This document shows positions 5,936-21,840 of a stretch of DNA of 64,000 nt, piece by piece (position 1 is the first letter of the stretch; every line of letters starts with the position of its first letter). This stretch comes from Thermococcus guaymasensis DSM 11113 (GTDB lineage: Archaea; Methanobacteriota_B; Thermococci; Thermococcales; Thermococcaceae). The stretch lies in contig NZ_CP007140.1 of NCBI RefSeq assembly GCF_000816105.1, positions 1,018,388 to 1,082,387 on the forward strand, given 5' to 3'. The notes under the pieces are model-generated. The model worked only from the letters and a program-made list of their open reading frames with translations, was not told where the DNA came from and ran no database searches. The translations under genes and the position numbers were made by a program.

Positions 5936-7504
5936 TCAGAGGCCGAGTTTGATTTTTGCCGCGTACTCTGCTGCCTTCTGAACGTACACCTTGTAATCCA
6001 CCGCCTGAACCGCCGCGGGATCAACATAGTGGCTCACAACGTACGGAGCAACCAAACCAATAACAACACAAGCCAAAGCAAGGATTAGGCAAACACCACT
6101 CAAACCCCAGCACTCCCTAGCGTCAATATCTTTCTTGGGCTTCCCAAGCCAAACCTCATAAAACACCCTAACATAAGCCACCAAAGCAGTCACCGAACTA
6201 ACAACAAGCACCAAAGCCAGCACTGGATTCTTATCCAAAAACGCGTTGAAGAGGAGTAACTTGCTGAAAAACACGTTGAACGGTGGCACACCAACGAGAC
6301 TCAGCGAAGCTACCGCCAGGCTGAAGGTCGCCACCGGCATCCTCCTCCCAAGCCCAGCCAAGTCCTCCAAATTCCTTGAGCCGGTAGCGTGAATAAACAC
6401 TCCCGCAGAGAGGAAGAGTAAAGCTTTAGCGACGGCGTGATTCACCATGTGGAAGATTGCCGCGCTCAAAGCCAACTCACTCCCAACGCCCACAGCCATG
6501 ATCAAGTAGCCCATGTGCATTATTGTCGAGTAGGCGATCAGCCTTTTCACGTCCTTCTGCACGAGCATCATTAACGCCCCGAACAGGGCTGAAACCGCCC
6601 CAAGGAGCATTAGGACAACACTGAGCGCGTGAACTACACTGGACAGACCGGATGTCAAAGTCCCACCGTAAACCGTGTACAGGAACCTGGCCAGAGCGTA
6701 AACGCCAACGTTAACCACTAATCCAGAGAGTATCGCCGAAATTGGACTCGGTGCCGCAGGGTGTGCCTCCGGAAGCCAGAAGTGGTTCGGGAAGACCGCC
6801 GCCTTAATCAGGAACGCCCAAGTGGCCAAGGCTAAAGCAATTCCAGAGGCAATGACAACATCCCCGTAAGGCTTCCCAACCACCGGGAAGCTCATCCCGT
6901 GAACCAACGCGCTCAAGTTTGCGAAGTTCAGTGTTCCAAAGCCGTAGTAAAGGACTCCTAAGGCTAGGAAGTACATCGTCGTTCCAACCGCGCCAATCAG
7001 CGCGTATTTTAATCCAGCGACGACAGAATCCCCTCTATCCCTGTAGTACATGACCAAGGCATAAGCCGCGATGCTCGTAACCTCAATCATGACGAAAAGG
7101 TTGAACGCGTCGCCCGTGAGGAGAACGCCGAGTAATCCCGCCTCAAGCCCGAGGTAGAGCGTGTAATACCATTCCAACCCACCCTCGCCCTCAAGGTAGC
7201 GGTAACTGTAGATTGCGATGAGGAACATTAGTGTGGCAGTTACGAGGGCTATTAAAGCGCTCATCCTGTCGACCTCGTAGATTATGCCCACTGGAGCCGC
7301 CCAGCCGCCGAAAGTGTAAATCAAAGGTTCTTTTGAAGAGTACGCCAACTGGAAGAGCTTGACGGCACTCAGCAGGGTTAAGCCTGTTCCAGTTAGAGCG
7401 TAGGCGCCTATAACCTTCCTGTTGCCTTTAACGAGGATTGAGGTTAGCGGTAATGCAAAGGCGAAGAGGATTGGGATTATGAGTGTTAATCCTATGACGT
7501 TCAT
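5936..7504 (-). CDS. mnhD: Mrp-type antiporter subunit MnhD (proton-conducting, NuoN/L-like)
   Basis: The 522-residue polytopic protein has about 14 hydrophobic segments and the ion-pumping family signatures: an acidic residue in LFVMIEVTSIAAYAL and the lysine-bearing segments LIKAAVFPNHFWLPEAHPAAPS and LMMLVQKDVKRLIAYSTIMHMGYL. It would carry H+ or Na+ across the membrane as the main antiporter subunit. The ATG at 7504 follows GGTGG; an upstream in-frame extension to 7546 would run into mnhE and is unlikely. It is the last gene of the operon. The codons lean to A/C-ending third positions compared with the genes upstream. Confidence 0.9.
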   Translation of the reverse strand: MNVIGLTLIIPILFAFALPLTSILVKGNRKVIGAYALTGTGLTLLSAVKLFQLAYSSKEPLIYTFGGWAAPVGIIYEVDRMSALIALVTATLMFLIAIYSYRYLEGEGGLEWYYTLYLGLEAGLLGVLLTGDAFNLFVMIEVTSIAAYALVMYYRDRGDSVVAGLKYALIGAVGTTMYFLALGVLYYGFGTLNFANLSALVHGMSFPVVGKPYGDVVIASGIALALATWAFLIKAAVFPNHFWLPEAHPAAPSPISAILSGLVVNVGVYALARFLYTVYGGTLTSGLSSVVHALSVVLMLLGAVSALFGALMMLVQKDVKRLIAYSTIMHMGYLIMAVGVGSELALSAAIFHMVNHAVAKALLFLSAGVFIHATGSRNLEDLAGLGRRMPVATFSLAVASLSLVGVPPFNVFFSKLLLFNAFLDKNPVLALVLVVSSVTALVAYVRVFYEVWLGKPKKDIDARECWGLSGVCLILALACVVIGLVAPYVVSHYVDPAAVQAVDYKVYVQKAAEYAAKIKLGL

Positions 7505-7514
7505 CTCCACCACC

Positions 7515-8000
7515 TCACTCGAATATCCTCTCCGCGTACTTCTCAAACTCCTCGCAGATTTCCCTCTTGGCCTTCTCAGGCTCCTCAGTAGTCACGTTAA
7601 TCCAGTTCACGTACAAGTAATCCTCGTCCACGTCAACGACAACTGTCCCAGGAGTGTTCGTTATCGAGTTGGCAACGAGAGTCCTCGCGTACTCGCTCTT
7701 CACCTTCAATGGAACTTTCACTATGCCGGGCTCGATGTCTCCGGTGATTATCCGCCTTATCACGTCCAAGTGCGCTTTAACTTCTGCAACGAGGAAGTAC
7801 CAGAGGAAGTAAATCAAGCCCCAAGCCCATCTAACTGGATTGAGGGCTTTGGCATCGTTCTCCACGAGGAATCTGCCGACGAGGAGGCCGACGGCTATTC
7901 CGACTATTGCTCCAGTGACCAAATCGTAGGGTGTGATTGAGCCCGTGAAGATGATGTACGTGATGAATGCGAGTAAGGCCGTTGCTACAACCCCCCTCAT
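7515..8000 (-). CDS. mnhE: Mrp-type antiporter subunit MnhE
   Basis: The 161-residue protein has two or three N-terminal membrane spans and a soluble C-terminal part with the family pattern in which LVANSITNTPGTVVVDVD precedes LYVNWINV. MnhE is a small structural subunit of multi-subunit Na+/H+ antiporters. Its ATG overlaps the stop of mnhC as ATGA, showing translational coupling, and mnhD starts 10 bases after its stop. Confidence 0.9.
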   Translation of the reverse strand: MRGVVATALLAFITYIIFTGSITPYDLVTGAIVGIAVGLLVGRFLVENDAKALNPVRWAWGLIYFLWYFLVAEVKAHLDVIRRIITGDIEPGIVKVPLKVKSEYARTLVANSITNTPGTVVVDVDEDYLYVNWINVTTEEPEKAKREICEEFEKYAERIFE

Positions 8001-8401
8001 GCTTCACCCCTCCTCAGCAGCTCGGGGAGTGTTTTCCCGACTTCTCTAACGTCCAGCGTCCCGTAAATCCTGTAAATCTGGATTATCGCGAAGGCGATGA
8101 GTATGTTAACCGCCATGCCAATGACTACTGCAGTTATGACTAACGCTTGGGGAAGCGGGTCGACGGCCGTTTTGACGAACTCGCCGAGGGCCGTTTTGGA
8201 GAGCTGGGGCAGGATTGGGGGCTTCACTGGGTAGATTACTCTATAACCGAGGAGGACGACGAGGACGTTTGCGGTATCACTGAAGATTGTCAAGGCTATC
8301 AGTTTTTTCACGAGGTTTGGCTTCGCAACAATCCCGCAAACGCTTATGATGAGCGTCGCGAGGAGTGAAACTATTGTGATGCTCCAGAGGAGTGCAATCA
8401 T
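7997..8401 (-). CDS. mnhC: Mrp-type antiporter subunit MnhC (NuoK-like)
   Basis: The 134-residue protein has three membrane spans, as in MnhC/NuoK. The second span contains the family pattern of a small-residue-rich helix after DPLPQALVITAVVIGMA, close to the conserved DPxxQALxLTxIVI motif of MrpC. It would form part of the lateral membrane path next to MnhD. Start and stop overlap both neighbours by four bases, so it belongs to the same transcript. Confidence 0.9.
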   Translation of the reverse strand: MIALLWSITIVSLLATLIISVCGIVAKPNLVKKLIALTIFSDTANVLVVLLGYRVIYPVKPPILPQLSKTALGEFVKTAVDPLPQALVITAVVIGMAVNILIAFAIIQIYRIYGTLDVREVGKTLPELLRRGEA

Positions 8402-9156
8402 CTCCTCACCCCCAGGAATTTCTTGAACTTCTTCTCGGGAATGCTGAGGAGCAGGAAGACCGCCGTGAAGCCCGCGCCGACCGCCAGGTACTCGAAGAGG
8501 TTGTACAGCACGAGTGAGCCTCCCAGGGGCACTCCGAGGGCTTCTCCTGGGAAGATTGGTTGATTCTGCATGATGTAACCGTTGGCGAGAAGTGGTGTTA
8601 AGGCCGTGAGTGCTATTCCGAGTAATCCTATGGAGCGGATTATTATTGCCCTCGTCTTGTCCAGGCCATTCTTTTCGAGCGCGTATTTAGTGTAGGCGGC
8701 TATCACGAGGAGTGGGGCAACAGCCAGTGCCGAACCGCCCTGGAAGCCGCCTCCGGGCGTTAACTGCCCGTGGAGGGCTATTGAGGCTGAAACTGCTAAA
8801 ATCATCGCAACCGTGAGTTTTGTGACCACTACGACAGGCTCTGGAAGCTGTGGTTTTGGCTGGCCTTGTTTTGCTTCTTCGGCTTGTTCTTTGCTCAGTC
8901 TGAAGAGGGTGAGGCTTCCGATTATCGCGAGGAAGAAGACGGCCGTTTCGAATAGCGTGTCAACTCCACGGTAGTCCCAGAGGATTGATGTTACCACCTC
9001 GGGGCTTTTTGCGGAGTGTTCTCCGAAGTAGCTGTTTTCGAGATAGTACTCTCCAAGCGGGTGGAGGTTTTCCGGTGGGGTAATGTTCTGGGCGATGTAG
9101 AACGCTACTCCGAGGACTGTGATGAGAAGTATGAGCAGGCCAATTAGGCGTTTCAT
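8398..9156 (-). CDS. mnhB: MnhB-family antiporter subunit fused to an MbhE-like N-terminal part
   Basis: The product has 252 residues, longer than a plain MnhB (about 140). Residues about 1-95 resemble the MbhE/MrpA C-terminal piece (the segment ILWDYRGVDTLFET is characteristic), and residues about 110-250 match MnhB with HGQLTPGGGFQGGSALA, the most conserved MnhB motif. In Thermococcales hydrogenases the MrpA C-terminal pieces are split off as small subunits; here one is joined to MnhB. Start follows directly on the stop of the DUF4040 gene and overlaps mnhC. Confidence 0.87.
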   Translation of the reverse strand: MKRLIGLLILLITVLGVAFYIAQNITPPENLHPLGEYYLENSYFGEHSAKSPEVVTSILWDYRGVDTLFETAVFFLAIIGSLTLFRLSKEQAEEAKQGQPKPQLPEPVVVVTKLTVAMILAVSASIALHGQLTPGGGFQGGSALAVAPLLVIAAYTKYALEKNGLDKTRAIIIRSIGLLGIALTALTPLLANGYIMQNQPIFPGEALGVPLGGSLVLYNLFEYLAVGAGFTAVFLLLSIPEKKFKKFLGVRR

Positions 9157-9411
9157 TCACACCACCTCGTATCTTTCGGTTTTCCCGATGATGAAGATGA
9201 GGAGTGCCGAGTATATTCCCACTGCTATTGCCACGTAAGCTAGGACGATGTCCGGCGCCATGAGGAGGTAGAAGATGATCGCGTAGGCTATGGCCTGGAT
9301 TGCTGAGTAACCAACAGCCTTAAGGAGGTCTTTTTCGGTTATTGCGAGGTATGAGGCTATTAATCCGATTAATGCGGCGATGGCGAGGATTGTTAGGTGT
9401 ATTTCAATCAT
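9157..9411 (-). CDS. DUF4040/MbhD-like antiporter subunit
   Basis: The 84-residue protein has three hydrophobic helices and the segment LLKAVGYSAIQAIAYAIIFYLLMAPDIVLAYVAIAVG, in which the APDIxLxxxAIG pattern marks the DUF4040 (MbhD, MrpA C-terminal) family. It supplies part of what MrpA provides in bacterial antiporters. The ATG at 9411 overlaps the stop of mnhG as ATGA, which decides this start over an upstream GTG-type extension to 9450. Confidence 0.85.
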   Translation of the reverse strand: MIEIHLTILAIAALIGLIASYLAITEKDLLKAVGYSAIQAIAYAIIFYLLMAPDIVLAYVAIAVGIYSALLIFIIGKTERYEVV

Positions 9412-9755
9412 TTTTTCGCCTCCTTCAAGTGGTCGGTTTTGGGTTTCCACTCTACGGTGTTACTTTTGTGGGCGGCGTAGGCTAGGGCCGTTGAACCTGC
9501 CGGAGCAGCGAGAAGGACTATTATCCCCGTGATGAAGCTGGCTCCGGCTATTGCGTACTTGTGTGGAATGTCGGTGCCGAGTGCGAGTAGTGCCACGCCG
9601 AAGAGGGGAACCGCTGCTCCTCCTATTGTTCCTATTGTTGCCGCGTGTAACCTAACATAGAAGTTTGGAAACTTGAGGAGGCCGATTGCTCCAAAGAGGT
9701 CGCAGATTCCGCCGATTGTTATGAGTATCGCGCCGAGGGTGAAGAGTATGTTCAT
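9408..9755 (-). CDS. mnhG: Mrp-type antiporter subunit MnhG
   Basis: The 115-residue protein has three membrane helices and the MnhG signature GLLKFPNFYVRLHAATIGTIGGAAVPLFG (FPdxyxRxHAat-x-G). It is a small structural subunit of the antiporter. ATGA overlaps with mnhF upstream and with the DUF4040 gene downstream place it inside the same operon. Confidence 0.92.
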   Translation of the reverse strand: MNILFTLGAILITIGGICDLFGAIGLLKFPNFYVRLHAATIGTIGGAAVPLFGVALLALGTDIPHKYAIAGASFITGIIVLLAAPAGSTALAYAAHKSNTVEWKPKTDHLKEAKK

Positions 9756-10030
9756 ACCCCCACCTCCTTTTTTGTGAGGTGGTTTGCGACGTAAACGTCC
9801 AGCAGGTAAGCCCAGAGTGCTAAGATTATGGCTCCGGTGATGAGGTAGGTGCTTTTGAAGTATACTGCGAGGATTGCCATGAAGGCTGCTATGTCGAAGC
9901 TCATGCAGTCTACCGCGAGGATTATGTCCGGTATTGTTGGGCCTTTGATGGCTCTGACTGTGTAGAGGATGAAGGCGGTCACGTACAGGGGGAGGATGAT
10001 TCTCATGAGTATAACAACCTCAGACGACAT
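9752..10030 (-). CDS. mnhF: Mrp-type antiporter subunit MnhF
   Basis: The 92-residue protein has three helices and the MnhF pattern RAIKGPTIPDIILAVDCMS (kGPtxpDrilA.D). The ATG at 10030 follows GGAGGGTCTG and comes directly after the hydrogenase small-subunit stop, so the longer open frame to 10192 is not used. It starts the seven-gene antiporter module attached to the hydrogenase module. Confidence 0.9.
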   Translation of the reverse strand: MSSEVVILMRIILPLYVTAFILYTVRAIKGPTIPDIILAVDCMSFDIAAFMAILAVYFKSTYLITGAIILALWAYLLDVYVANHLTKKEVGV

Positions 10031-10031
10031 C

Positions 10032-10595
10032 TCAGACCCTCCTGACCTCGAGCTTTGGAAGGAAGTGCCTCGTCTTCTCGGCCTCCATGAGAAGGCTCTC
10101 CAGCCGGGCTTTTTCCTCGACAACGCTTTCCTCGGGCTCGATGTAAACCTGTTTCCTCTGCTTCTTTTCGAGCATTCCCCTTGCGACCGCAACTCCGTAG
10201 ATTATGGCCTCCGGCTTTGGCGGACAACCTGGGATGAAAACTGTGGCGGGCGGTTCGATGTTGTACTCCTCCCTCAGGATTTTGTAGAGCTCCTTGACCC
10301 CTCCAATGACGGAATACGTGTCGTACCAGATGCCTCCCCCGCAGGCGCAGGCTCCAATGGCGAGAACGACCTTGGGGTCGGGAACTGCCGTGAGGGCGTC
10401 TATAACTTTGGGAAGGCACTCCCTTGTTATTGGCCCGGTAAAAGCTATGGCATCCGCATGTCTCGGGCTTCCAACGAGCTTTATTCCCAGTCTCTCCACG
10501 TCGTTCCTCGGGGCGAATATGTTCAGAACCTCTATGTCGCAGCCGTTGCATGAGCCTGAGTTGAGGTGAAAGACCCAGAGGCTTTTCTTTATCAT
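10032..10595 (-). CDS. [NiFe] hydrogenase small subunit (CooL/MbhJ, NuoB-like)
   Basis: The 187-residue protein has the proximal [4Fe-4S] cluster ligands of group 4 hydrogenases: GSCNGCDIE near residue 14, GACACGGG near residue 86 and PGCPPKPEAI near residue 120. It passes electrons from the ferredoxin-like subunit to the NiFe site in the large subunit, on the cytoplasmic side of the membrane. No Tat signal is present, as usual for group 4 enzymes. The ATG at 10595 overlaps the upstream ferredoxin gene by four bases. About 70 C-terminal residues after the last cluster motif are charged and shared only with close relatives as far as I can judge. Confidence 0.92.
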   Translation of the reverse strand: MIKKSLWVFHLNSGSCNGCDIEVLNIFAPRNDVERLGIKLVGSPRHADAIAFTGPITRECLPKVIDALTAVPDPKVVLAIGACACGGGIWYDTYSVIGGVKELYKILREEYNIEPPATVFIPGCPPKPEAIIYGVAVARGMLEKKQRKQVYIEPEESVVEEKARLESLLMEAEKTRHFLPKLEVRRV

Positions 10596-11098
10596 CTCTT
10601 ACACCCCCAGAGCCTCCATTCTGATGTCTTCTCCCTCCGGCACTCGGGGCAGAGAAGGAGCGACCCTCTTTCCCACGGGGGAACGTTTTCAGCCACATGT
10701 ATCAGGTGCCTGTAGGTGTCGAATGGTTTCCCGCACTTGCTGCAACGGGCGAGTTTTAGCTCGACAATCTGATGGAGGTCGTCCTGGTTCGGGGTGGCCA
10801 GCTCAAACTCCTTCGTCAGCTTTATCGCCCCCACGGGGCAGACATCCTGACAGCGGGCGCAGAAGATACACCTCCCGAGGAAGAGGTGCACGATCCTCAC
10901 TCCTCTCTCAAGGTCGTCGTAGACTTGGATTGCCTGGGGCGGGCAGGCGTTGGCGCAGGCACCGCAACCGATGCACTTCTCCTCGTTTATCACGGGCTTT
11001 CCCCTGTAGTCCTCCGGCACCTCAATCGGCGCGAAGGGATACTTCTCGGTGACTTTACCTATGGAGATGGCCTTAGAAATGAGTTTAAGCCTTCCCAT
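10592..11098 (-). CDS. Polyferredoxin subunit of the CO-linked hydrogenase (CooX/MbhN-like) with zinc-knuckle tail
   Basis: The 168-residue protein has two [4Fe-4S] motifs, CIGCGACANACP near residue 41 and CIFCARCQDVCP near residue 77, the NuoI-type arrangement. It would hand electrons from the CooF-type ferredoxin to the small subunit. The last 60 residues add CSKCG and CPEC separated by about 35 residues, a rubredoxin-like or zinc-knuckle module. The start overlaps the end of the large-subunit gene by 14 bases. Confidence 0.9.
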   Translation of the reverse strand: MGRLKLISKAISIGKVTEKYPFAPIEVPEDYRGKPVINEEKCIGCGACANACPPQAIQVYDDLERGVRIVHLFLGRCIFCARCQDVCPVGAIKLTKEFELATPNQDDLHQIVELKLARCSKCGKPFDTYRHLIHVAENVPPWERGSLLLCPECRREKTSEWRLWGCKR

Positions 11099-12722
11099 TG
11101 CCCAACCTCCTCACTCCCTCTTCTAGAGAACCCCTCCAGAGAACCCTACCCCCTTTGGAATCTATTATTGAGACGTGGTCAGTGCATGAGAAGCACGGGT
11201 CTATCGAGGCTATGATTATGGGAGCGTCCGCGATGTCATTGTCCCTGAGCATAACCGGAACTGCGGGCAGGTTGTTGTACGTTGAAGCCCTCGGATGCCA
11301 GCGGTAGACTTTGTTTTCGCCCCAGGTTATTAGGACGTGGACGTCCTCCCCACGGGGAGCCTCGGTAACGCCGAGGCCGAGCTTGAATCGGGGTATCTCG
11401 TAGTCCTCGTTTATTAGCTCCCCTTCCGGCATGTTGGCGAGTGCCTGCCTTATCATGCTGAAGCTCTGGAAAATTTCGTCGCATCTCACGAGGAACCTTG
11501 AGAGAACATCCTCACCTTTGTAAACGGGAACCTCGAAGTCAAGGTCGCCGTATGCCGCGTATGGATGGTCTCTCCTGACGTCCGTGTCTATCCCCGAGGC
11601 TCTCGCAACGGGTCCCACAACACCTATTCTCCTGCCCTTCTTCTTTGGAAGAACTCCAACGTTCTCCATCCTTTCCCTGAGCTCTTTCATCTTGGCAACG
11701 CTGTCCAAGACCTCCCTGCTGTCTTTCTCTGCCAGGTCAAGGAGCTCCAGGACTTTCTTCTTTTTCTTCTCCGGGATGTCCCTCCGGACACCGCCGACGA
11801 GGTTTATCCCGTAGGTTTTCCTGTTGCCCGTTATCAGCTCAGCTACGTCCATGATGTACTCCCTGGCCCTCCAGAGGTGCATGAAACCGCTGTCGAAGCC
11901 GAGGAGGTGGCAGGCGATCCCGAACCAGAGGAGGTGGCTGTGAATCCTCTCAACCTCAAGCATTATCGTCCTGATATACCTTGCGCGTTCTGGAACGTAG
12001 ATATCGGCCGCATCCTCCACTGCTTGACAGTAGGCAGTCGAGTGGGTGCACCCACAGATTCCGCATATCCTCTCCGCCAGGAATGGGATCTGATTGAGGG
12101 TCATCCTACTCTCCGCGAGCTTCTCCATGCCCCTGTGGACGTGGAACCCCCTGTATTTCGCATCGACGATTTTGTCCCCCTTCACGTAGATTTCAAAGTA
12201 CTCCGGCTCGTGAAGGGTTGGGTGATATGGCCCGAGGGGCACTTCCATAACGTTGGCCCTCGGCTTTCTCTTCTCTCCCTTTGGCTTGGCCGGCGGGAGC
12301 TTTTTGTTGTAGGGGAAGCCCTTCCTCAGGGGATATACCCCCTTGGGCCAGTCTTCGGGCAGGATTAGTCTTTCTGGTTCAGGGTGGCCATCAAAAACGA
12401 TTCCGAGCATGTCCATTGCTTCTCTCTCCGACCAGTTGGCCCCCTCTATCACGGGGGTTATGGAGGGCATCGTGAGCCCGTTTGCCGGAGTCGTCAGCTT
12501 GAGAATTACGTGCCTCCTCTCGGCCTCGCAGTTGAAAACGTGATACATCGCGAACCTCAGGTTGATTGGCCTCTCATCGACCCCCATTCCGCACGAGTAG
12601 TAACAGCCAGCGTTGAAAAGCTCCCTGGCTATTTCCCTGATCCTCTCAGGACTCACCTCCGCGACGGTTACCCTCTCATCGTGTCGCAGTATCCCACATC
12701 CCTTCAGTATCTCAATAACCAT
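11085..12722 (-). CDS. [NiFe] hydrogenase large subunit fused to NuoC-like subunit (CooU-CooH type)
   Basis: The 545-residue protein joins an N-terminal NuoC/30-kDa-like domain (residues about 1-160, with ANWSEREAMDMLGIVFDGHP) to a NuoD/49-kDa-like catalytic domain. The NiFe ligands are visible: ERICGICGCTHS near residue 220 (RxCGxC) and DPCFSCTDH near residue 510 (DPCxxC). About 28 residues follow the second motif, which in this family are normally cut off by an endopeptidase after metal insertion. The subunit would reduce protons to H2. The ATG at 12722 lies 2 bases after the NuoH-like stop; upstream in-frame codons lie inside that gene. Confidence 0.93.
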   Translation of the reverse strand: MVIEILKGCGILRHDERVTVAEVSPERIREIARELFNAGCYYSCGMGVDERPINLRFAMYHVFNCEAERRHVILKLTTPANGLTMPSITPVIEGANWSEREAMDMLGIVFDGHPEPERLILPEDWPKGVYPLRKGFPYNKKLPPAKPKGEKRKPRANVMEVPLGPYHPTLHEPEYFEIYVKGDKIVDAKYRGFHVHRGMEKLAESRMTLNQIPFLAERICGICGCTHSTAYCQAVEDAADIYVPERARYIRTIMLEVERIHSHLLWFGIACHLLGFDSGFMHLWRAREYIMDVAELITGNRKTYGINLVGGVRRDIPEKKKKKVLELLDLAEKDSREVLDSVAKMKELRERMENVGVLPKKKGRRIGVVGPVARASGIDTDVRRDHPYAAYGDLDFEVPVYKGEDVLSRFLVRCDEIFQSFSMIRQALANMPEGELINEDYEIPRFKLGLGVTEAPRGEDVHVLITWGENKVYRWHPRASTYNNLPAVPVMLRDNDIADAPIIIASIDPCFSCTDHVSIIDSKGGRVLWRGSLEEGVRRLGNGKA

Positions 12723-12724
12723 TT

Positions 12725-13606
12725 TCACCACCCCATGAGGGCAAGCAACCAGCACAGGGCACCGAGGACTGAGAACCTCTTGAGGAACCTCACCGCGTCC
12801 TTAGTCCTGAATCTCCCGCAGGAGGCCTCTATTGCGGAATAGATCACCGATAGAACGATTAGGCCTATTACGTAATAGATTGCCCTAACCGCTGGGCTCC
12901 CCCTGAGGAAAAAGTTCAGAAAGACCGTGAACAGGAGGAGTCTCTTTGTATATATTGAAAGCTTCAGTAGTGCGAGCTGCCTTCCACTGTATTCAATCAG
13001 CGGGCCCTCTACTATCTCGGGCTCAGCCTCCGAGACATCAAACGGAACCCTCGCCCCACTCACGTATGCAAGCACCGCGAAGAGGAGTGCACCGATTAGG
13101 GCGGAGGCCTTGAGCGGGAGGGGGAACAGGCTTGAGAGCGTGAAGCTTTTGACGGAGACTGATAAAGCCGCTATGACGAAGGCCAGCGAGAACTCCTCGG
13201 CCATGAAGAGGGATACTTCCCTGTGGGACCCTATCTGGGCGTAGGGGTTTCCACTTGAAAAGCCTCCCAGGGTTACGGCGACGGTGCTGAGCGTCATCAG
13301 GTAGAGGAACGCTATTATGTCTCCCCAGAACCTCATTGAGTCTGGCAGAACCGCTGGAACGAAGAAGAAAGCCGTGAGGATTGAGGCAAGTGCTATGGGC
13401 GGCCCGAGGCGAAAGAGCCATCCTATTGACTCCGATGGGGTTACCGAGGGCCTTTTGAAGAGCTTTATCAGGTCAAACCACGTCTGAACCAACGGTGGTC
13501 CCTGGCGCGTCTGGAGTTTGGCCTTTACCTTCCTTTCGAGACCGTCTAAGAGCGGGGCAAAGATGACTGCGAATATTACGTTCACGATGCATCCCGCGAG
13601 GCTCAT
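12725..13606 (-). CDS. NuoH-like membrane subunit of the hydrogenase (CooK/MbhM type)
   Basis: The 293-residue protein has eight or so helices and the NuoH signatures GLERKVKAKLQTRQGPP (ERK..ar.Q.R.GP) near residue 25 and ARVPFDVSEAEPEIVEG near residue 190, the conserved quinone-chamber-like region that in hydrogenases couples the soluble arm to the membrane arm. The ATG at 13606 overlaps the stop of the 632-residue subunit as ATGA; the frame upstream to 13756 is a shadow of that gene. Confidence 0.92.
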   Translation of the reverse strand: MSLAGCIVNVIFAVIFAPLLDGLERKVKAKLQTRQGPPLVQTWFDLIKLFKRPSVTPSESIGWLFRLGPPIALASILTAFFFVPAVLPDSMRFWGDIIAFLYLMTLSTVAVTLGGFSSGNPYAQIGSHREVSLFMAEEFSLAFVIAALSVSVKSFTLSSLFPLPLKASALIGALLFAVLAYVSGARVPFDVSEAEPEIVEGPLIEYSGRQLALLKLSIYTKRLLLFTVFLNFFLRGSPAVRAIYYVIGLIVLSVIYSAIEASCGRFRTKDAVRFLKRFSVLGALCWLLALMGW

Positions 13607-15501
13607 AGTGACGCACCCCCGAGTATCAGAACCATTATCAGGAGCGCCACGGCGGAAGCCGTCATCATCAGGTCGGCCTGGTAAGACCGCACCTCGTAGA
13701 GAACCGCGAGTCTCTTGGTGCCTCTCCAGATTGAGCTGATTGCCTTCCCTGCCCATTCGCCGAGGGAGTAGACCTCCTCGAACTCCTCCTCAAAGGAAGC
13801 GTAGTATGAACTCGCCGGAAGGCGCATGGAGAGGGGCTTCCTCGTCCCGGTTGTCCATACCGGCAGGACAACTTTGGAGTGAGTCAGAGCCAGGAAAGCG
13901 GTTCCAAAAGCTAGGAGGACGACGAAAATAGCTAAGGGCTCGATGTTCCCGGTGTTGGGGATAACTATTCCGGGGAACGTTTTAAGTGCCGGAACGCTAA
14001 CGCCCGCTGATTTTAGGGCTTTCGATATAAGGCCGAGCGGTAGTTTTGGGTAGATTCCGAAGGCTAGGCAGACGAAGGCGAGTATTGCCTGCGGAACCCA
14101 CATCGTTGGGGGAACTTCTTTGACCTCGATTCTCTCCAATGGAGGCCTTGTGAACATCGTCGTGAAGTATTTGACGAACGAGGCGGTAGTTACAGAGCTT
14201 ATGAAGAGCGCGAACGCTCCAAACAATGAGAGAACCGTTGGTGTTGGAAGCGTCGAGGCGTATATCATCCATTTGCTCACGAAGCCGTTCAGCGGTGGCA
14301 TCCCCGCTATTGAAAGCGCCCCGATGAGGGCGGTAAATGCCGTTATCGGCATGGACTTTGCGAGTCCTCCGAGGTAGTTCAAATCCCTGCTCCCGGTTCT
14401 GTAAGCAACTGAACCCGCCGTGAGGAAGAGGAGACCCTTGAAAGTCGCGTGGTTTATCGCATGGTACAGCGACGCGGCCAGTGCAACGGCCCCGAGGAGA
14501 GCGTCTCCCCTTGAGAGGAGGTACAGCCCCGCTCCAAGGGCCAGGATTACGTAGCCTATCTGCCCAATGCTGTGATACGCCAAAAGCCTCTTTGAGTCCG
14601 TCTGCTTGAGGGCGTACATCGTTCCGAAGAAGAGGGTCAGGGTGCCTATCAGTGCTATTCCCAGCCCGAGGTACTTATCGAGGGGCAGGAACCTCAGGAA
14701 CACGACGAACATCATGTAAACCGGAATTTTTTCCATGACCCCGCTGAGTAACGTCGAGACGTTGCTTGGGGCTTCCATGTATGCATCTGGAAGCCATGAA
14801 TGGAGGGGCACAACGGCGGCTTTAACCCCCAATCCCACAAGCATGCCAATCGCTATGGCGTAAGTTTCTGCCGGGTGATGAATGAGATAAGAGGGCAGAA
14901 CCTGGGATATTCCTGAATAGTCTGCCGTGCCAGCAGTTTTGATTATCGTGAGGACTATCGCTAACAACATAAAGTCGGCCCCCGCTTTGGTCATGCAGAA
15001 GTATTTGAAAGCGGCTTTGACAGCCCTCTCGCTTCTTTCAAACGCAACCAGGAACTGGGAGAAAAGGGTCATCAGTTCCCAGAAGATTATGAACCAGAGG
15101 AGGTTCTGGGTCAGCAGAGTCAGCATCATGAACAGCAGGAATAGGGGATAGCTGACGTTGTAGAGCCTCATATCCCTCCTGTACATGTCCATGTAGCTAA
15201 CCCCGTAGAGGGAAGCCGAGAACGAGAGGACGCCAAGAATCAGCAGGAAAAAAGCCGACAGCGGTGTTACTTTAAGGGTCAGTGAGCCCAACAGCCCTGT
15301 TATGCCGCTCCCCCCTTCAAACAAGCTGAGCGTAACTGAAGGTGGGTTGTTAGTAAACCCGAGGATTCCGAGGTAGCACACCCCGATGGATGCCAGGGCT
15401 GAAATCAGATTCACGGCCTTTGTCATCGCTTTTCCGCCGGAGAACAGCCCAACAACTGCCGCCAAGATAAAGAGAAAAGCGATAAAGGCCAGGGGCGTCA
15501 T
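13603..15501 (-). CDS. Large proton-conducting membrane subunit of the hydrogenase (HyfB/CooM/MbhH-like)
   Basis: The 632-residue protein has about 15 helices and the antiporter-like family motifs, including LLWFIIFWELMTLFSQFLVAF with its membrane glutamate, AAVVPLHSWLPDAYMEAPS and the lysine segment ALKQTDSKRLLAYHSIGQIGY. It is the ion-translocating partner of the hydrogenase arm. A C-terminal extension of about 100 residues with an amphipathic helix, as in NuoL/HycC proteins, may tie the complex together. The ATG overlaps the stop of the preceding cooT-like gene by one base. Confidence 0.9.
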   Translation of the reverse strand: MTPLAFIAFLFILAAVVGLFSGGKAMTKAVNLISALASIGVCYLGILGFTNNPPSVTLSLFEGGSGITGLLGSLTLKVTPLSAFFLLILGVLSFSASLYGVSYMDMYRRDMRLYNVSYPLFLLFMMLTLLTQNLLWFIIFWELMTLFSQFLVAFERSERAVKAAFKYFCMTKAGADFMLLAIVLTIIKTAGTADYSGISQVLPSYLIHHPAETYAIAIGMLVGLGVKAAVVPLHSWLPDAYMEAPSNVSTLLSGVMEKIPVYMMFVVFLRFLPLDKYLGLGIALIGTLTLFFGTMYALKQTDSKRLLAYHSIGQIGYVILALGAGLYLLSRGDALLGAVALAASLYHAINHATFKGLLFLTAGSVAYRTGSRDLNYLGGLAKSMPITAFTALIGALSIAGMPPLNGFVSKWMIYASTLPTPTVLSLFGAFALFISSVTTASFVKYFTTMFTRPPLERIEVKEVPPTMWVPQAILAFVCLAFGIYPKLPLGLISKALKSAGVSVPALKTFPGIVIPNTGNIEPLAIFVVLLAFGTAFLALTHSKVVLPVWTTGTRKPLSMRLPASSYYASFEEEFEEVYSLGEWAGKAISSIWRGTKRLAVLYEVRSYQADLMMTASAVALLIMVLILGGASL

Positions 15502-15901: not shown

Positions 15902-16711
15902 TCACCCCACCTTTGACCTCCGCTTCAGGCTCAGTATTCTCCTTGCTAAGGACATGGCGTCTTGGTACACAGTGGAATCCCTTGGGATGGAATCGACCCC
16001 AAGCCCAGAGTTGTCGGCCTTAACAACGTTTTCATCGTATCTTATCATGCAGTAGGGAATCGGTTCATCGGAGAAGACCTTCCCGTAAAGCTGGGATGCT
16101 TCTACGGTATCCCGAACTTTGTTCATGACGAGCAGGAGCTTTGAGATATTGAGCTCCCTCCCCATCCTAAGGAGTTTCTTTGCTATCATGAGGGATTTGA
16201 GCGTGGGTTCGGCAACGCATATCATTATGTCGAACTTCTCCGCGAGCCCCCTTCCGAAAACCTCGGCACCGGCCTCGCTATCCACTATCACTATGTCCTT
16301 CTCTTTGAGGAGGACGTGGGTTAGAAAGGCACGCGCGAGCGCTATCGAGGGACACATACAGCCTTCTTTCGGCTGCTCAATGCTCCCAACAACAACCAAG
16401 CTGAGGTTCGGCCTTATTCTTATTCCATACTTATCAGCGAGGTCGTCAACTTTTGGTGTGAGCGAAAATATAACCCCCCATCCGGAACCCGGTCTCGCCC
16501 CGGTTCTCTCCTCGGCGAGGTCTTCGTTTCTTGAGAGGGGCACTATTTCGAGGGCTTTCTCATAGGGAACCCCGAGGCTCTGAGCCAGGTTCGGAACCGA
16601 ATCCGCGTCCAAACATAGAACGCTGTACCCCTCATCGGCGAGGATGTGGGCCAGCAATGCCGAGACCGTGGTCTTTCCGACGCCCCCTTTCCCAGCGACG
16701 AGAATCTTCAT
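15902..16711 (-). CDS. cooC: CO dehydrogenase maturation ATPase CooC
   Basis: The 269-residue protein opens with the deviant Walker A motif GKGGVGKTTV at residues 7-16, of the MinD/ParA class. It also has CLDADSVPNLAQSLG and IVVDSEAGAEVFGRGLA, typical of CooC, and a mid-protein CMCP segment corresponding to the CxC nickel/zinc site at the dimer interface. It uses ATP to insert nickel into the C-cluster of CooS. The ATG at 16711 lies 44 bases after the cooS stop with GGAGGTGACAGCT in front; earlier codons belong to the intergenic stretch. Confidence 0.93.
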   Translation of the reverse strand: MKILVAGKGGVGKTTVSALLAHILADEGYSVLCLDADSVPNLAQSLGVPYEKALEIVPLSRNEDLAEERTGARPGSGWGVIFSLTPKVDDLADKYGIRIRPNLSLVVVGSIEQPKEGCMCPSIALARAFLTHVLLKEKDIVIVDSEAGAEVFGRGLAEKFDIMICVAEPTLKSLMIAKKLLRMGRELNISKLLLVMNKVRDTVEASQLYGKVFSDEPIPYCMIRYDENVVKADNSGLGVDSIPRDSTVYQDAMSLARRILSLKRRSKVG

Positions 16712-16755
16712 AGCTGTCACCTCCACTAAGAAAAAGTAACGAATCAAAAAATAAA

Positions 16756-18654
16756 TCAAAGTGGCCATCCGAGCTTCTTCCTCTTTTCGATGATGACGTT
16801 GTATATCGTCTCGGCGGCCTTAACCGGGTCTGGCTCCACGTAGAACTTTCCTCCGACGATGTCCTCAACGTCCTCAGTCAGTATCTTGGCAACCTTCTGG
16901 CTTCCCATCACGGGCGGGACAACGCCAAGATGCGTGAACACGCCGCTGGCAACGAAGTAAGTTCCTATCGAAACCGCCTTCTCGCTCATCCACTCTGGAG
17001 CTGAACCTGCCGCCGGGAGGTCTGGGATGTCCACTCCCAGGGCCTCTGCCAGTGCCCCGAGGGCTATCAGTATCCTCGAGCAGTCAACACAGCTACCCAT
17101 GTGGAGGCACGGCGGGATGTTCAGTGTTTCACATACCTTCTTCAGCCCCGGACCGGCCAGATCAACGGCCTTCGGGGACATCAGGCCATCCATTGCAGCT
17201 GCTATCGACCAGCATCCGGTTCCCACGACGAGCACGTCCCTCTTTATGAGCTCCTTAGCGATGGTGACGTGGCTGTGGTTGTGCCTGACCTTCGGGTTGT
17301 TACAGCCCACTATCCCGACGATTCCCTTTATGGTTCCGTCCCTCAGGGCGTTGATGAGAGGCTCAAGCGTTCCGCCGAGGGCCTCGAGTATGGCTTCGAC
17401 GCTGAAGCCAGCTATTGCCTCTATCTTGTGCTTGGGAATGTGCACCCTGTCCCTCGGCCTGTTCGGGTAGTTTTCAATAGCTATCCTCACGATTTCCTTC
17501 GCTATCTCGTCGGCCTTCTCGGCGTTGAACTCTATGTGGATGGCACCCGGAATGTGCGCCTTTGGCTCGGTTGTTATGACCTTGGTATGGTAGCACTGGG
17601 CAACGTCAACTATGGCCGGCATTATACACTGGTAGTCGACTATTATGGCCTCAACTGCACCGGTTATCACCGCCAGCTCCTGCATCAGGAAGTTGCCCGC
17701 TATCGGAACCCCAAGCCTCATGAGAACCTCGTTTCCCGTACAGCACATTCCAGCAACGTTAACTCCCTTGGCCCCGTACTTCTTGGCGAGCTCTTGCATC
17801 TCCTCGCTCATGGCAACTTCAACGATCTTGGTTGAGAGTATCGGGTTGTGTCCGTGGACGATTATGTTGACGTAGTCCTCCTTGAGGACGCCGAGGTTGG
17901 CCTCGGCCTTTATCGGCTTTGGCGTTCCAAAGAGTATGTCGCTCAGGTAAGTGGCCATCATTGAGCCGCTCCATCCATCGGCGATGGAAGTCCTTATACC
18001 GTGGAGGAGCAGTGAAACGGGATCGGCGTCGACACCGATGTGCGTCCTGTGCATGCACTCACAGATTTCCCTGTCTATGGCCCTTGGGATGACCCCTGCC
18101 TTCTCCCAGACCTTAATCCTCTTCTTCGGAGCGAGGGCGAGCATCCTCAGGGGCTCGTCTCCCGGTTTCCCGAACTCTCCCTCAAGCACCTCAGCGAGCT
18201 CCCTTGCTATCTCGTGCTCGTCCTTATTCTCTGTGCTGATTCCCAGGGTCTCGGCGAGCGACTTGAGCTTCTCAACGTCGGTCAGTCTGTAGTACTGAAG
18301 CCTTCCCTCGGCCACTCCCTTGAAAACTTCAGCTACGTCCCTGGCGTGGTCGCTGTGGGCGGCGGCTCCCGCGGCTATCATCCTGAGGAGGTTCCTGGCA
18401 ACTATAGTGTCAGCACCAGCTCCACAGACACCTTTTGTTGGTCCCGACCCAAACGGGTCTATCCTGCACGGCCCCATGTTACAGTTTCTACAGCAGAGAC
18501 CAAGCTGACCAAAGGCACACTGGGGTTGCTGCTCCAGAAGGCGGTGCCAGGCGGTCTTCACGCCGTCCTCTTCGGCCTTCTCAATCAACTCGGCAACACC
18601 CTTGGTTGCCGAAACCCCCCTTGCGGGGACACGATACTTAATGTATTCAGCCAT
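16756..18654 (-). CDS. cooS: Ni-CO dehydrogenase catalytic subunit CooS
   Basis: The 632-residue protein is of normal CooS length. The cluster ligands of the family can be seen: CAFGQLGLCCRNCNMGPCR near residue 46 for the D and B clusters, HSDHARDV near residue 98, CCTGNE near residue 303, GCNNPKVRHNH near residue 445, GTGCWSIAAAMDGL near residue 475 and CLHMGSCVDCSR near residue 520 for the NiFe C cluster. It oxidises CO with water to CO2 and gives two electrons to ferredoxin. No acetyl-CoA synthase subunits lie nearby, so this is an energy-yielding, hydrogenase-linked enzyme. Confidence 0.97.
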   Translation of the reverse strand: MAEYIKYRVPARGVSATKGVAELIEKAEEDGVKTAWHRLLEQQPQCAFGQLGLCCRNCNMGPCRIDPFGSGPTKGVCGAGADTIVARNLLRMIAAGAAAHSDHARDVAEVFKGVAEGRLQYYRLTDVEKLKSLAETLGISTENKDEHEIARELAEVLEGEFGKPGDEPLRMLALAPKKRIKVWEKAGVIPRAIDREICECMHRTHIGVDADPVSLLLHGIRTSIADGWSGSMMATYLSDILFGTPKPIKAEANLGVLKEDYVNIIVHGHNPILSTKIVEVAMSEEMQELAKKYGAKGVNVAGMCCTGNEVLMRLGVPIAGNFLMQELAVITGAVEAIIVDYQCIMPAIVDVAQCYHTKVITTEPKAHIPGAIHIEFNAEKADEIAKEIVRIAIENYPNRPRDRVHIPKHKIEAIAGFSVEAILEALGGTLEPLINALRDGTIKGIVGIVGCNNPKVRHNHSHVTIAKELIKRDVLVVGTGCWSIAAAMDGLMSPKAVDLAGPGLKKVCETLNIPPCLHMGSCVDCSRILIALGALAEALGVDIPDLPAAGSAPEWMSEKAVSIGTYFVASGVFTHLGVVPPVMGSQKVAKILTEDVEDIVGGKFYVEPDPVKAAETIYNVIIEKRKKLGWPL

Positions 18655-18666
18655 ACCATCACCTCC

Positions 18667-19305
18667 TCAATACCACCTAACAGGAGTGTACATCCTGTAG
18701 AGATCCATGGGTTTGAATGGTTCCTCTTCTTCCTTTTTCTCAACAATCGGTTTTACGTAGACCATGCCCGGAACCTTCATTCCGGAGATTAGGTTCTCGG
18801 CCTTCTCCCTCTTGACCTCCTCAAGGATGTCACTGAGCCGTCCGAACTTCATTGCCCCCGTTGGGCAGGCTTCAACGCACGCCGGAGGTTTGCCTTCTCT
18901 GACGCGCTCGACGCACGAATCGCATTTCAGAACCACCTTGTATTCGGGCTCATATTTTGGATGACCAAAGGGACATGCCATCACGCACATGAGGCATCCA
19001 ATGCACTTGTTCGGGTTCAGGACAACGAAGCCTTCCTCTGTCTTGGATATTGCTCCCGTTGGACACGCCTTCATACAGGGAGCGTCTTCACAGTGCTGGC
19101 ATCTCATTGGGACGTTGAAGAAGTCGGCGACGACAACCTTCAGCCTTGGTTTCGGCGTTGGCTTCTCTTGGATTGCCCCAAAAAGGTCCTTGCTCATAGA
19201 ATGCTCGATGGCACAGGCCATTTCGCAAGACCTGCAGCCCATGCACTTTGATGGGTCGATATAGACTGTCAACTTGTCGCTCGCGGGCGATAGGATAGAA
19301 TCCAT
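18667..19305 (-). CDS. cooF: CooF-type polyferredoxin
   Basis: The 212-residue protein has four [4Fe-4S] motifs: CMGCRSCEMAC, CQHCEDAPCMKACP, CIGCLMCVMACPFGHP and CDSC...PACVEACP, the DmsB/CooF arrangement. It would carry electrons from CooS to the hydrogenase. The last 50 residues are charged and end in a short aromatic tail. ATG at 19305 follows GAGGTGATAACA. It is the first gene of the CO unit, 12 bases ahead of cooS, so the operon promoter lies upstream. Confidence 0.92.
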   Translation of the reverse strand: MDSILSPASDKLTVYIDPSKCMGCRSCEMACAIEHSMSKDLFGAIQEKPTPKPRLKVVVADFFNVPMRCQHCEDAPCMKACPTGAISKTEEGFVVLNPNKCIGCLMCVMACPFGHPKYEPEYKVVLKCDSCVERVREGKPPACVEACPTGAMKFGRLSDILEEVKREKAENLISGMKVPGMVYVKPIVEKKEEEEPFKPMDLYRMYTPVRWY

Positions 19306-19335
19306 TGTTATCACCTCGATTTAGGTTAAACAAAA

Positions 19336-19349: not shown

Positions 19350-19352
19350 TCG

Positions 19353-19370
19353 TGTTCGGTAATTAGAACA
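19353..19370. promoter_or_regulatory. Dyad TGTTC-N8-GAACA, candidate CorR/CorQ operator, proximal site
   Basis: The 18-base element has perfect 5-base inverted arms and lies directly upstream of the TATA/BRE area of cooF, where archaeal activators that recruit TBP/TFB bind. A second dyad with the same arms lies 29 bases further upstream. Assignment to CorR is inference from position. Confidence 0.5.
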
Positions 19371-19411: not shown

Positions 19412-20539
19412 TCATGTGTACAGGGACAGTAGCACTTTTTCTCTAACCTTGCGGTACTCCTCCAAGATGTTCCGTGCGAATCCTGTCAAAATAGTTACCC
19501 CCTTCTTTCTGCCTCCCCTCACGGTTATTAGAATGGACACCCCAAGCTTGTCCTCAAGCTCCTTTATCCTTTCCCAGTACGTCGATGGAGAAACGCCCAT
19601 GGCCTTACATGCGGCCCTGAAGGACTTTAGCTGGGAGATCAGCTCAAGGAGTTCCATGACGTCCGGTGGTATCTCAACCCCCTCCTGCGTCACAAAAGAA
19701 ACTTTGACTTTGGGAGTTAGTTGGACGGCGTTTTGACTCAGAGGGCACGGGGAAAAGAGTATCTTCCTGAGGTATTCGGTTGAGAGGTGCCGATAACTAA
19801 TACTGAGCTTTGAGTGGGGACATTTGGAAACATTGCCGTAGGGGTTTACGTAGAGGGTTTTGCAACTCTCCGGAGAGGGGGACGTCAGCAGGGTCACTGG
19901 ATAGTCGTCAAAGAAAACCTTGAGGGCATGGTACATGTATTTTACCCCGTAGTGCAGGCCCACCTCGGTGTTTTCTCTCTTCGCAAGTTTTTTCAGGAAT
20001 TCTTCCGTGGGGGCCTTCTCATAGAATCTCGGCCCCACTGTTATTCTAAGCCCCAGCCTCCGGCAGATGCCAATCAGGGAAAGTATTTCGGCAAAATCAA
20101 AGCTCAATCCCAGCGGTATGTACGCTTCAATGTTATCGAATCCGAAGGACAGCAGGTTTTTTATCGTTTGGACTGATGACGTCATTGCCTTTTGGGAATT
20201 CACTAAGATTATGAGAGCGTGTATGTTGTTTGAAATTTTTTTAAGCTGGCCGCTTCGAGCGACGTTCTTTAATCCGGAGATTGGAACAAACACATCAACG
20301 CGATCGCATAGTTCTTGAGTTTTATCCAGGATGACGTCTATCTTTGGATGAGAGAATGGGTTGGGGCATATTACAACGCACTCATCAAACCTGAAACCGT
20401 TTAAGTTCTCGGCCAGGGCATCCAATGCAAGGGGCGGTAGCATCATTCCCGTGCAGCCAAACTTTTCCCTCCACGGACAGATTATGCAACTCCCATCACA
20501 TTTTGTTGAGGGCTGGATTACCAAAAGGGTCATGCCCAT
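19412..20539 (-). CDS. corR: CorR-like CO-responsive regulator: radical-SAM-like domain fused to LysR/ModE-type HTH
   Basis: The 375-residue protein has two parts. Residues about 5-270 resemble a radical SAM protein: KCDGSCIICPW supplies C14, C18 and C21 in exact CX3CX2C spacing, and C226, GNVSKCP (C240) and C265 look like a twitch/SPASM-type second cluster region. The usual GGE motif is replaced by CPNPFSHP. Residues about 295-370 form a winged HTH of the LysR/ModE N-terminal class (SFRAACKAMGVSPSTYWERIKELEDKLG, then a wing with GGRKKG). A CorQ/CorR pair was reported as the CO-dependent activator of such operons in T. onnurineus; position and domains agree. ATG at 20539 overlaps the corQ stop; 20533 is an alternative. 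Confidence 0.82.
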   Translation of the reverse strand: MGMTLLVIQPSTKCDGSCIICPWREKFGCTGMMLPPLALDALAENLNGFRFDECVVICPNPFSHPKIDVILDKTQELCDRVDVFVPISGLKNVARSGQLKKISNNIHALIILVNSQKAMTSSVQTIKNLLSFGFDNIEAYIPLGLSFDFAEILSLIGICRRLGLRITVGPRFYEKAPTEEFLKKLAKRENTEVGLHYGVKYMYHALKVFFDDYPVTLLTSPSPESCKTLYVNPYGNVSKCPHSKLSISYRHLSTEYLRKILFSPCPLSQNAVQLTPKVKVSFVTQEGVEIPPDVMELLELISQLKSFRAACKAMGVSPSTYWERIKELEDKLGVSILITVRGGRKKGVTILTGFARNILEEYRKVREKVLLSLYT

Positions 20540-21111
20540 CACTCGAATATGACTTCAAATCCGCAGAAATGGTTGCCAAGTCCCCAGCAGTACACCTCTC
20601 TCGTAATGTTCTTGCCTATGAGGGCCTCCATGACCCCCTGTATGAAGCCGGCCTCGAAGTCACAGAGGGTTCTTCCCACTGGTGTGGTGTTGTAACAGCT
20701 CATGCACTCGTAGAGGTTGACCTTCATACGGTTGAAGGATTCTTCTACGATATCGACTATGCCAAGTTTCTGTTGCAGGAATACCCTTGGGAGATCGTCT
20801 ATGCTTCTGATCTCGTTGGTCTCGACGAGTTTACGGGCCAACCTATAACCTGCGCCCCTGAGAATGAGAATCCTTAGGGAGGGGCTGTATTTGAGCATAC
20901 CGTACGAGATCATCCTGAAAGTTCTGACGTATGTTGGATCCTCGGGGGATAGTCTTACAAAGAACGGCCTTTTTACGTTGAAGTATACCGCTGGATCAAG
21001 CTCGAGGTGCCCAACTTTTTCAGCGCACTTTTTTTGTTTCTTCTCCTCTTTGTACACCTCCCGCCACTTTTTCAGCGAGGGTTCAACTAGACAGGCAACA
21101 TCTTCCATCAT
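20539..21111 (-). CDS. corQ: CorQ-like V4R (4-vinyl reductase) domain protein, partner of CorR
   Basis: The 190-residue protein ends in a V4R domain: ECMSCYN (C136, C139), RTLCDFEAGFIQG (C150), and YCWGLGNHFCGFEV (C175, C183), the small-molecule-binding, metal-ligating pattern of this family. The N-terminal half is basic and helical and carries no known domain. The stop overlaps the corR start (TGATG), so the two are made together. In Thermococcus the pair was described as the CO sensor-activator; which of the two senses CO is not decided by sequence. ATG 21111 and ATG 21108 are both possible; GGTG lies just before. An AT-rich ATATATAA lies just upstream. Confidence 0.8.
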   Translation of the reverse strand: MMEDVACLVEPSLKKWREVYKEEKKQKKCAEKVGHLELDPAVYFNVKRPFFVRLSPEDPTYVRTFRMISYGMLKYSPSLRILILRGAGYRLARKLVETNEIRSIDDLPRVFLQQKLGIVDIVEESFNRMKVNLYECMSCYNTTPVGRTLCDFEAGFIQGVMEALIGKNITREVYCWGLGNHFCGFEVIFE

Positions 21112-21304
21112 TGGCACCAAATTATATATGATTTGATGTTTAACTAAAACCTTTTTGGTTGGCAAAGAAAGTCTTATTAACTCTCCTCCTCACAAACTCT
21201 TCGCGGGGTGGGATGACAGAACCCCTTTAACCGATGACATCAACTCCGCTGAAAATGCCCCTTTGGTTAAAAAGAGGCCTGAAAGGGGAGATTTGAGTTG
21301 CGAA

Positions 21305-21369: not shown

Positions 21370-21840
21370 ATGCTCGGATTTTTGAAGCGGAAGAAGAAAG
21401 AAGTCCGCGGGCCCTTCGTCTACCTGACGGAGCCAACATTCCTCTACCACACCCGGACTGAGAAGGCAATCCTCGAAATCATTGAGGAAAAATTGGATTC
21501 AACCAATGTCCTCGTTCCTTCCAAGTACGGCATAAGAGACACGAGCGACAGGATTAAGGAAGCGGAATACCTCGTCGCAGTCGCTCCCCTCGGAAAGTTC
21601 TCCTCCCTCGTCTGCAGGGAAGTCAAAATCGCACAGGAACTCGGTGTTAAAGTCTTCACACTGCTTATAACCCGCAATGGGGACGAGCTGGTATACCTGT
21701 GGGTCGAGGGCGTTCCCGAAGATGTGGAGTGGCTCTCCCCCGAGGAGACAATGGAGTTTACCAAAACGTTCGTCAACAGCGAGTTTATGGATCAGATAAA
21801 GCACGGCTTTATCTTCGGGTCAAGAAAAAGGGAATGGTAG
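21370..21840 (+). CDS. Conserved-looking hypothetical protein
   Basis: I do not recognise this 156-residue protein. It has a basic N-terminus (FLKRKKKE), no membrane span, and an alternating alpha/beta pattern with repeated hydrophobic strands (NVLVPSKYG, YLVAVAPLG, KVFTLLITRNG), suggesting a small Rossmann-like or TIR/SLOG-like fold: the EAEYLVAVAPLG and REVKIAQELGVKVFTLLI segments are of the kind seen in nucleotide-processing SLOG/TIR sensors, but no catalytic residues can be fixed. The start follows GAGGTGGTCTT. It precedes the phosphopantothenate synthetase gene by 39 bases. Confidence 0.7.
   Translation: MLGFLKRKKKEVRGPFVYLTEPTFLYHTRTEKAILEIIEEKLDSTNVLVPSKYGIRDTSDRIKEAEYLVAVAPLGKFSSLVCREVKIAQELGVKVFTLLITRNGDELVYLWVEGVPEDVEWLSPEETMEFTKTFVNSEFMDQIKHGFIFGSRKREW

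Follow-up and report, generated by a model that had tools for sequence, protein, structure and literature searches.

Evidence for radical-SAM ancestry of the N-terminal domain in the archaeal CO-responsive regulator CorR

Introduction

The carbon monoxide dehydrogenase (CODH) and hydrogenase gene cluster of Thermococcus guaymasensis DSM 11113 is preceded by a two-gene regulator, CorQR, which raises the question of which of the two proteins receives the CO signal and by what chemistry. CorQR is known from Thermococcus onnurineus NA1 (Kim et al. 2015, cited in passages of PMC4791640 and PMC6557876), where it is reported to be a CO-responsive activator of the CODH cluster and has also been a tool in H2 production from CO, according to the sections of PMC4791640 that treat it; there is therefore practical value in knowing its input. 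The CO sensors with a known cofactor in the CorQR-related passages, CooA and RcoM, are both haem-based, and they have the same role, switching on CODH/hydrogenase operons in response to CO, whereas CorR lacks a haem domain and has an unrelated fold with a putative Fe-S site.

By context the CorR studied here is the orthologue of the T. onnurineus protein, with the same gene pair, the same site beside a CODH-hydrogenase operon, and the same helix-turn-helix (HTH) and V4R domains. The published accounts, in the parts concerned with CorQR, give only the HTH and V4R and describe no N-terminal domain and neither the C58 nor the twitch cysteines discussed below; the relevant passage of PMC6557876 also exchanges the two partners, giving the HTH to CorQ and the V4R to CorR. 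No mention of a radical-SAM origin was found in the CorQR passages of the citing publications, the original 2015 description aside. What was known is CorQR as a CO-responsive activator pair; relative to those passages, the radical-SAM-derived N-terminal domain and its seven invariant cysteines, including C58, are new.

The corQR locus and its DNA-binding domain

The window, the whole 64,000-nt stretch of DNA that was analysed, is part of a closed 1.92 Mb genome. Within it, corR occupies 19412..20539 on the minus strand and encodes 375 amino acids from an ATG at 20539, numbered here as residue 1; an alternative GTG start lies one codon upstream (ORF 19412..20542, minus strand). Its V4R-domain partner corQ (20539..21165, minus strand), identified by Pfam/NCBIfam-type profile matches, overlaps corR at GTGATG, and the two are likely to be translationally coupled. 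On the minus strand the order is corQ, corR, a 97-base gap, cooF, cooS, a cooC-like ATPase, and hydrogenase and Na+/H+ antiporter genes. The first gene of this presumed target operon is a cooF-like 4Fe-4S ferredoxin (18667..19314), followed by the Ni-Fe CO dehydrogenase cooS (16756..18654), the cooC-like P-loop ATPase (15902..16768), and, still within this cluster, the genes for the energy-converting hydrogenase and the Na+/H+ antiporter (5936..15501), all on the minus strand. As an HTH protein adjoining a V4R CorQ and a CODH-hydrogenase cluster, CorR belongs to a CorQR pair.

The corR-cooF gap holds a candidate operator, TGTTC-N8-GAACA (19350..19370, minus strand), just upstream of a TATA-like stretch, for which the evidence is weak. 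Other Thermococcaceae have CCGAACACGA in common in this gap, and a second lineage described below has TTCGGAA(C) there, or a palindrome, for example CGTTTTAAC-N5-GTTAAAACG (locus L145). Upstream of corQ, on the opposite strand, a 156-aa ORF (21370-21840, plus strand) had no Pfam match up to E 1.

The LysR/ModE-type winged HTH named in the original prediction was confirmed at residues 293-368 (19436..19663, minus strand) by Pfam, NCBIfam and PDB searches: it scored above the cut-off of Pfam HTH_1 (5.1e-9, 36.4 bits, cut-off 26.6), matched ModE_repress at 4.4e-10 but below the cut-off of that model, fell well short of the ModE family TIGR00637 (39.5 bits, cut-off 98.5), and found the ModE-like 2ijl as its closest solved structure. 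CorR thus shares the winged HTH of ModE and LysR proteins and differs from them in carrying it at the C-terminus, without a LysR effector domain or a molybdate-binding domain; the LysR layout of an N-terminal HTH followed by a substrate-binding domain is absent, as no such domain was matched.

Distribution and relatives of CorR

Of the 94 Thermococcaceae genomes, 16 carry CorR, and these same 16 carry CorQ. CorR is present in every one of the 15 genomes whose CODH is of the high-scoring type (762-793 bits). A CODH match was also obtained in 17 further genomes, among which G063 alone has CorQR; it is the sixteenth CorR genome, and its CorQR contig ends before the expected CODH genes. Other CODH types (about 660-690 bits, and 575 bits) are present without CorQR among the 94 genomes, and their regulation must therefore differ.

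When searched with a profile of the N-terminal domain, another archaeal family (f20) also yielded CorRs; in this second lineage a V4R CorQ lies before corR and cooF/cooS lie after it. The lineage is probably Korarchaeia, because Korarchaeum is the other lineage reported with CorQR. One corR of genome G280 (L147) is split in two frames (2082-2339 and 1156-2109), as a frameshift in the metagenome-assembled genome (MAG) or as a pseudogene.

A CorR-like radical-SAM/HTH fusion at 26% identity was found in genome G407 (L164, 1144-2178, minus strand; L170, 8213-9247). It adjoins an energy-converting hydrogenase cluster, with no CODH in the 18 kb read and no neighbouring CorQ, the best V4R match of the genome being weak and on another contig. 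This gene hints that hydrogenase regulators of this kind form a wider family.

Radical-SAM ancestry of the N-terminal domain

Residues 1-270 (19730..20539, minus strand) form, according to profile, Foldseek and AlphaFold results, a radical-SAM-like (beta-alpha)6 domain followed by a twitch-like segment. In single-sequence searches the N-terminal domain of the window's own CorR had no match in Pfam, NCBIfam or PDB, and the ancestry signal became visible because alignments of its relatives were used. Among 15 Thermococcaceae CorR N-domains, five match Radical_SAM PF04055 (best 6.8e-4) and four match archaeal MoaA (best 3.5e-4). In the second lineage, CorR L144 reaches 32.3 bits against PF04055 (cut-off 29.5, E 1.4e-7), its siblings match at 0.0012-0.041, and all CorRs other than L144 stay below the cut-off.

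Profile-profile comparison gave the clearest result. An earlier 15-sequence profile scored 31.5 against MoaA while one of 200 shuffles reached 33, so that this likeness is suggestive without being clear-cut; the relationship was settled by adding the second lineage. The resulting 12-member profile A5, spanning both lineages, aligned with 20 Thermococci-class MoaAs over 237 columns (hhalign probability 94, E 8.7e-8), with a score of 59.8 against 15.1 +/- 2.7 (maximum 25.1) for 300 column shuffles, and placed three features in register: CX3CX2C, CPNP with GGEP, and C226-C240 with the MoaA CX13C. In a rougher hhalign control with CorR set aside, the 12 best single-protein scores were ORFs of radical-SAM loci, above all unrelated window ORFs; this control is biased because the radical-SAM loci had been pre-filtered for CX3CX2C, and we give it no weight.

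Structural comparison agrees. The top matches of an hmmsearch against the PDB were MoaA structures (2fb2, 2e-4; 1tv7, 3.1e-4), and Foldseek with the AlphaFold model of the N-domain returned MoaA and SuiB as its top five PDB matches, the best being MoaA at 8.7e-5. The models are modest (mean pLDDT 64-66, N-domain 65.5), and the partial (beta-alpha)6 TIM barrel predicted from secondary-structure order and Foldseek is of low confidence at residues 1-32, which hold CX3CX2C and score below 50. The original prediction that a radical-SAM fold ending in a twitch-like segment had become a regulator, for which an AlphaFold/Foldseek comparison had been proposed, was thus borne out by Pfam, profile-profile, PDB profile and Foldseek searches alike, with the (beta-alpha)6 order recovered and MoaA ranked first. 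We conclude from these comparisons of sequence profiles and predicted folds that the N-terminal domain of CorR is of radical-SAM (MoaA/SPASM-like) ancestry.

Among the weak matches of CorR N-domains was the haloarchaeal 'pseudo-SAM/SPASM' family TIGR04347 of NCBIfam, possibly another non-catalytic branch of the radical-SAM fold.

Conserved cysteines and the altered SAM-binding motif

The N-domain carries the radical-SAM cluster motif C14-x3-C18-x2-C21 (20477..20500), an octapeptide C58-P-N-P-F-S-H-P at residues 58-65 (20345..20368) in register with the radical-SAM GGEPLLHP, a twitch/SPASM-like half-motif C226-x8-G-x4-C240 (19820..19864), and a third twitch-region cysteine, C265 (19745..19747), all on the minus strand. 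These positions agree exactly with the original prediction, which had listed six of the seven conserved cysteines and overlooked C58, although it had quoted the octapeptide that contains it. All seven (C14, C18, C21, C58, C226, C240 and C265) are identical in the 15 aligned Thermococcaceae CorRs, the others of which are 50-91% identical to the window's protein; C159 and C311 are likewise invariant in this set, and C29 is variable. The seven are also kept in the 12-sequence alignment that includes the second lineage at 22-26% identity, where the invariant N-domain columns are C14, C18, C21, L34, C58, P59, P61, H64, L99, L129, G163, Y203, F209, P214, C226, G235, C240, P241 and C265 (identity down to 22%). 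When the most divergent relative, the G407 protein L164, is added, 16 invariant columns are left, seven of which are cysteines; this protein keeps C58-P59 and all seven cysteines and loses P61, H64 and the rest of CPNPxxHP. Judged on these alignments, the cysteine pattern is not due to chance.

It is conceivable that the cysteines serve as zinc ligands or have a structural role, with the radical-SAM likeness reflecting fold ancestry only, and the low model confidence at the N-terminus would fit; we regard this as very improbable given that, in an anaerobic host, CX3CX2C is exactly spaced and, like the C-x13-C that resembles MoaA, invariant.

The CX3CX2C of radical-SAM proteins is invariant in all relatives, whereas the GGE-type SAM-binding motif expected after beta-2 is replaced by CP(N/D)P in every CorR and by CPW in the most divergent relative. 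CPNPLLHP of CorR aligns over GGEPLLHP, and C58, which with P59 is invariant in all relatives, replaces the first glycine of GGE. In the CorR-MoaA profile alignment the TNG stretch after beta-3 is lost as well. The claim that the cluster cysteines were kept while GGE was lost is therefore supported, as read from the alignments with MoaA. A strict GGE is missing from several radical-SAM families that are active, and its loss alone is no proof of lost SAM binding. CorR might accordingly still work as an enzyme, using an unusual SAM site to modify CorQ, CorR itself or a small ligand on exposure to CO, and the complete retention of CX3CX2C and the twitch cysteines would be in keeping with that; GGE, however, is lost in every CorR and kept in the close MoaA/SPASM relatives, and the TNG stretch is not retained, which makes an active enzyme quite improbable in our estimation. 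Because the GGE feature was looked for and found absent, we describe CorR, on its sequence, as radical-SAM-derived and do not file it as a radical-SAM enzyme.

With MoaA and the SPASM/twitch enzymes (SuiB, NirJ, AhbD) CorR shares the (beta-alpha)6 order, CX3CX2C, the GGEP register and the C-x13-C of the second cluster; it differs in having C-P-N/D for GGE, a fused HTH and no known substrate, and the Thermococcaceae CorRs also lack the first twitch cysteine. Twitch/SPASM segments are C-terminal and rich in cysteine, with the pattern CX9-15GX4C plus additional cysteines. The twitch site of Thermococcaceae CorRs has three cysteines, the number also seen in MoaA, as CX8GX4C and C265 only, whereas the second lineage (L143-L148, L162) has four in all, as CX3CX13C and a later cysteine, and fits CX12GX4C with one later cysteine. 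A vacant iron at the three-cysteine Thermococcaceae site is possible, and the second cluster of MoaA has a potentially free site (PMC5352715). Such an open twitch iron would not be conserved, because the second lineage has a fourth cysteine there, and from this sequence comparison it is a poor candidate for a shared CO receptor.

Candidate routes of CO sensing

The original prediction suggested that the site-differentiated iron of the radical-SAM cluster, read here as a vacant site, could bind CO directly. This part did not stand as worded, as the invariant C58 at the GGE position could ligate that iron, and we recast the idea as a ligand-displacement or redox sensor. Since C58 lies at the first glycine of GGE, it probably occupies or guards the otherwise 'open' iron as a fourth ligand or gate, by analogy with enzymes in which a protein residue plugs the unique radical-SAM iron, namely NifB (C62), Mmp10 (Y115) and TsrM (E273) (PMC9692996). 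In NifB and Mmp10 the ligating residue is able to leave (PMC9692996). CorR would share with these enzymes a protein residue (Cys, Tyr or Glu) as ligand and would differ in that its plug stands at the GGE position and serves a switch. C58 may be the most informative of the seven cysteines.

We infer Fe-S content, CO binding and loss of SAM chemistry from the cysteine pattern, and the model that we prefer, to which we give an even chance, is that CorR is an activator built from a radical-SAM fold and a winged helix with a C58-guarded [4Fe-4S] cluster that is CO-ligated or redox-switched. One cluster would sit on C14/C18/C21, with C58 taking over from SAM in holding or guarding its fourth iron, and a second on C226/C240/C265, in a domain without SAM radical chemistry. 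Under CO, either the cluster would be ligated by CO and C58 displaced, or its redox state would shift as CODH drives low-potential electrons; the twitch segment would relay the change to the HTH, CorQ would complete the switch as partner, and the CODH-hydrogenase operon would be turned on. A cluster-bearing, SAM-less fold of this kind would be a rare turn of the radical-SAM fold from catalysis to gene regulation.

In CooA, CO displaces a protein ligand of the haem, and the first branch proposes a like switch: a non-haem sensor in which CO takes the place of C58 on the unique iron of what was once a radical-SAM [4Fe-4S] cluster, and in which the ligand swap drives the HTH. We hold this specific version only tentatively and think it on the whole unlikely; if true, it would be an iron-sulphur counterpart of CooA, with a concrete site (C58 and C14/C18/C21), and would move the search for the CO receptor from the V4R of CorQ to CorR. 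The second branch, stated alone, is a redox relay without CO binding: CODH would create a low ferredoxin potential from CO, a four-cysteine [4Fe-4S] cluster in CorR would respond to that potential, and the system would thereby sense the metabolism of CO instead of the gas. C58 would be able to complete such a four-cysteine cluster, and the twitch site of the second lineage has four cysteines too; the CorR-like gene beside the G407 hydrogenase cluster, with no CODH seen in the 18 kb read, fits better with redox as the signal than with CO. Autoinduction, however, would require some prior CODH, and as a full account we find the relay doubtful.

The partner protein offers a different answer. The V4R domain of CorQ has E153, C168, C193 and C201 (window CorQ alignment numbering) invariant in both lineages (window 20539-21165; L143-L148). 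A V4R site of one glutamate and three cysteines is of the zinc-binding kind, and zinc does not bind CO; the CorQ site is more likely a zinc or thiol site than a CO receptor. In profile matches CorQ resembles MsvR of methanogens, in which the redox state of V4R cysteines modulates DNA binding (PMC3729527), and the V4R of CorQ includes the three conserved cysteines that MsvR uses in thiol redox control; MsvR has its own HTH, whereas CorQ depends on CorR for DNA binding. The V4R of CorQ could therefore sense CO or redox, with the N-domain of CorR as a cluster-stabilised platform that binds CorQ and positions the HTH. The constant pairing of CorQ with CorR in Thermococcaceae, the four residues invariant across both lineages and the likeness to redox-acting MsvR speak for this arrangement, as does the passage of PMC6557876 that places CO sensing in the V4R domain. 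Against it stand the zinc-type site, the G407 relative, which keeps all seven cysteines without an adjoining CorQ, and the share of cysteines among the 16 invariant N-domain columns, which exceeds the needs of a scaffold, and we consider it unlikely that CorQ is the sensor.

Additional searches

No CorR was found in viral contigs or in plasmids, the latter giving a LysR HTH match only. Two CorR-like matches with internal stops (L032 and L037, of the same class) were actually stand-alone ModE-like HTH genes and were rejected. The sole search covering bacteria was a pattern scan of genome contigs; it relies on exact matches to short peptides and did not recover the second lineage either. It returned Thermococcus-type CorR loci only, one of them in a MAG labelled Thermotogota that is probably mis-binned.
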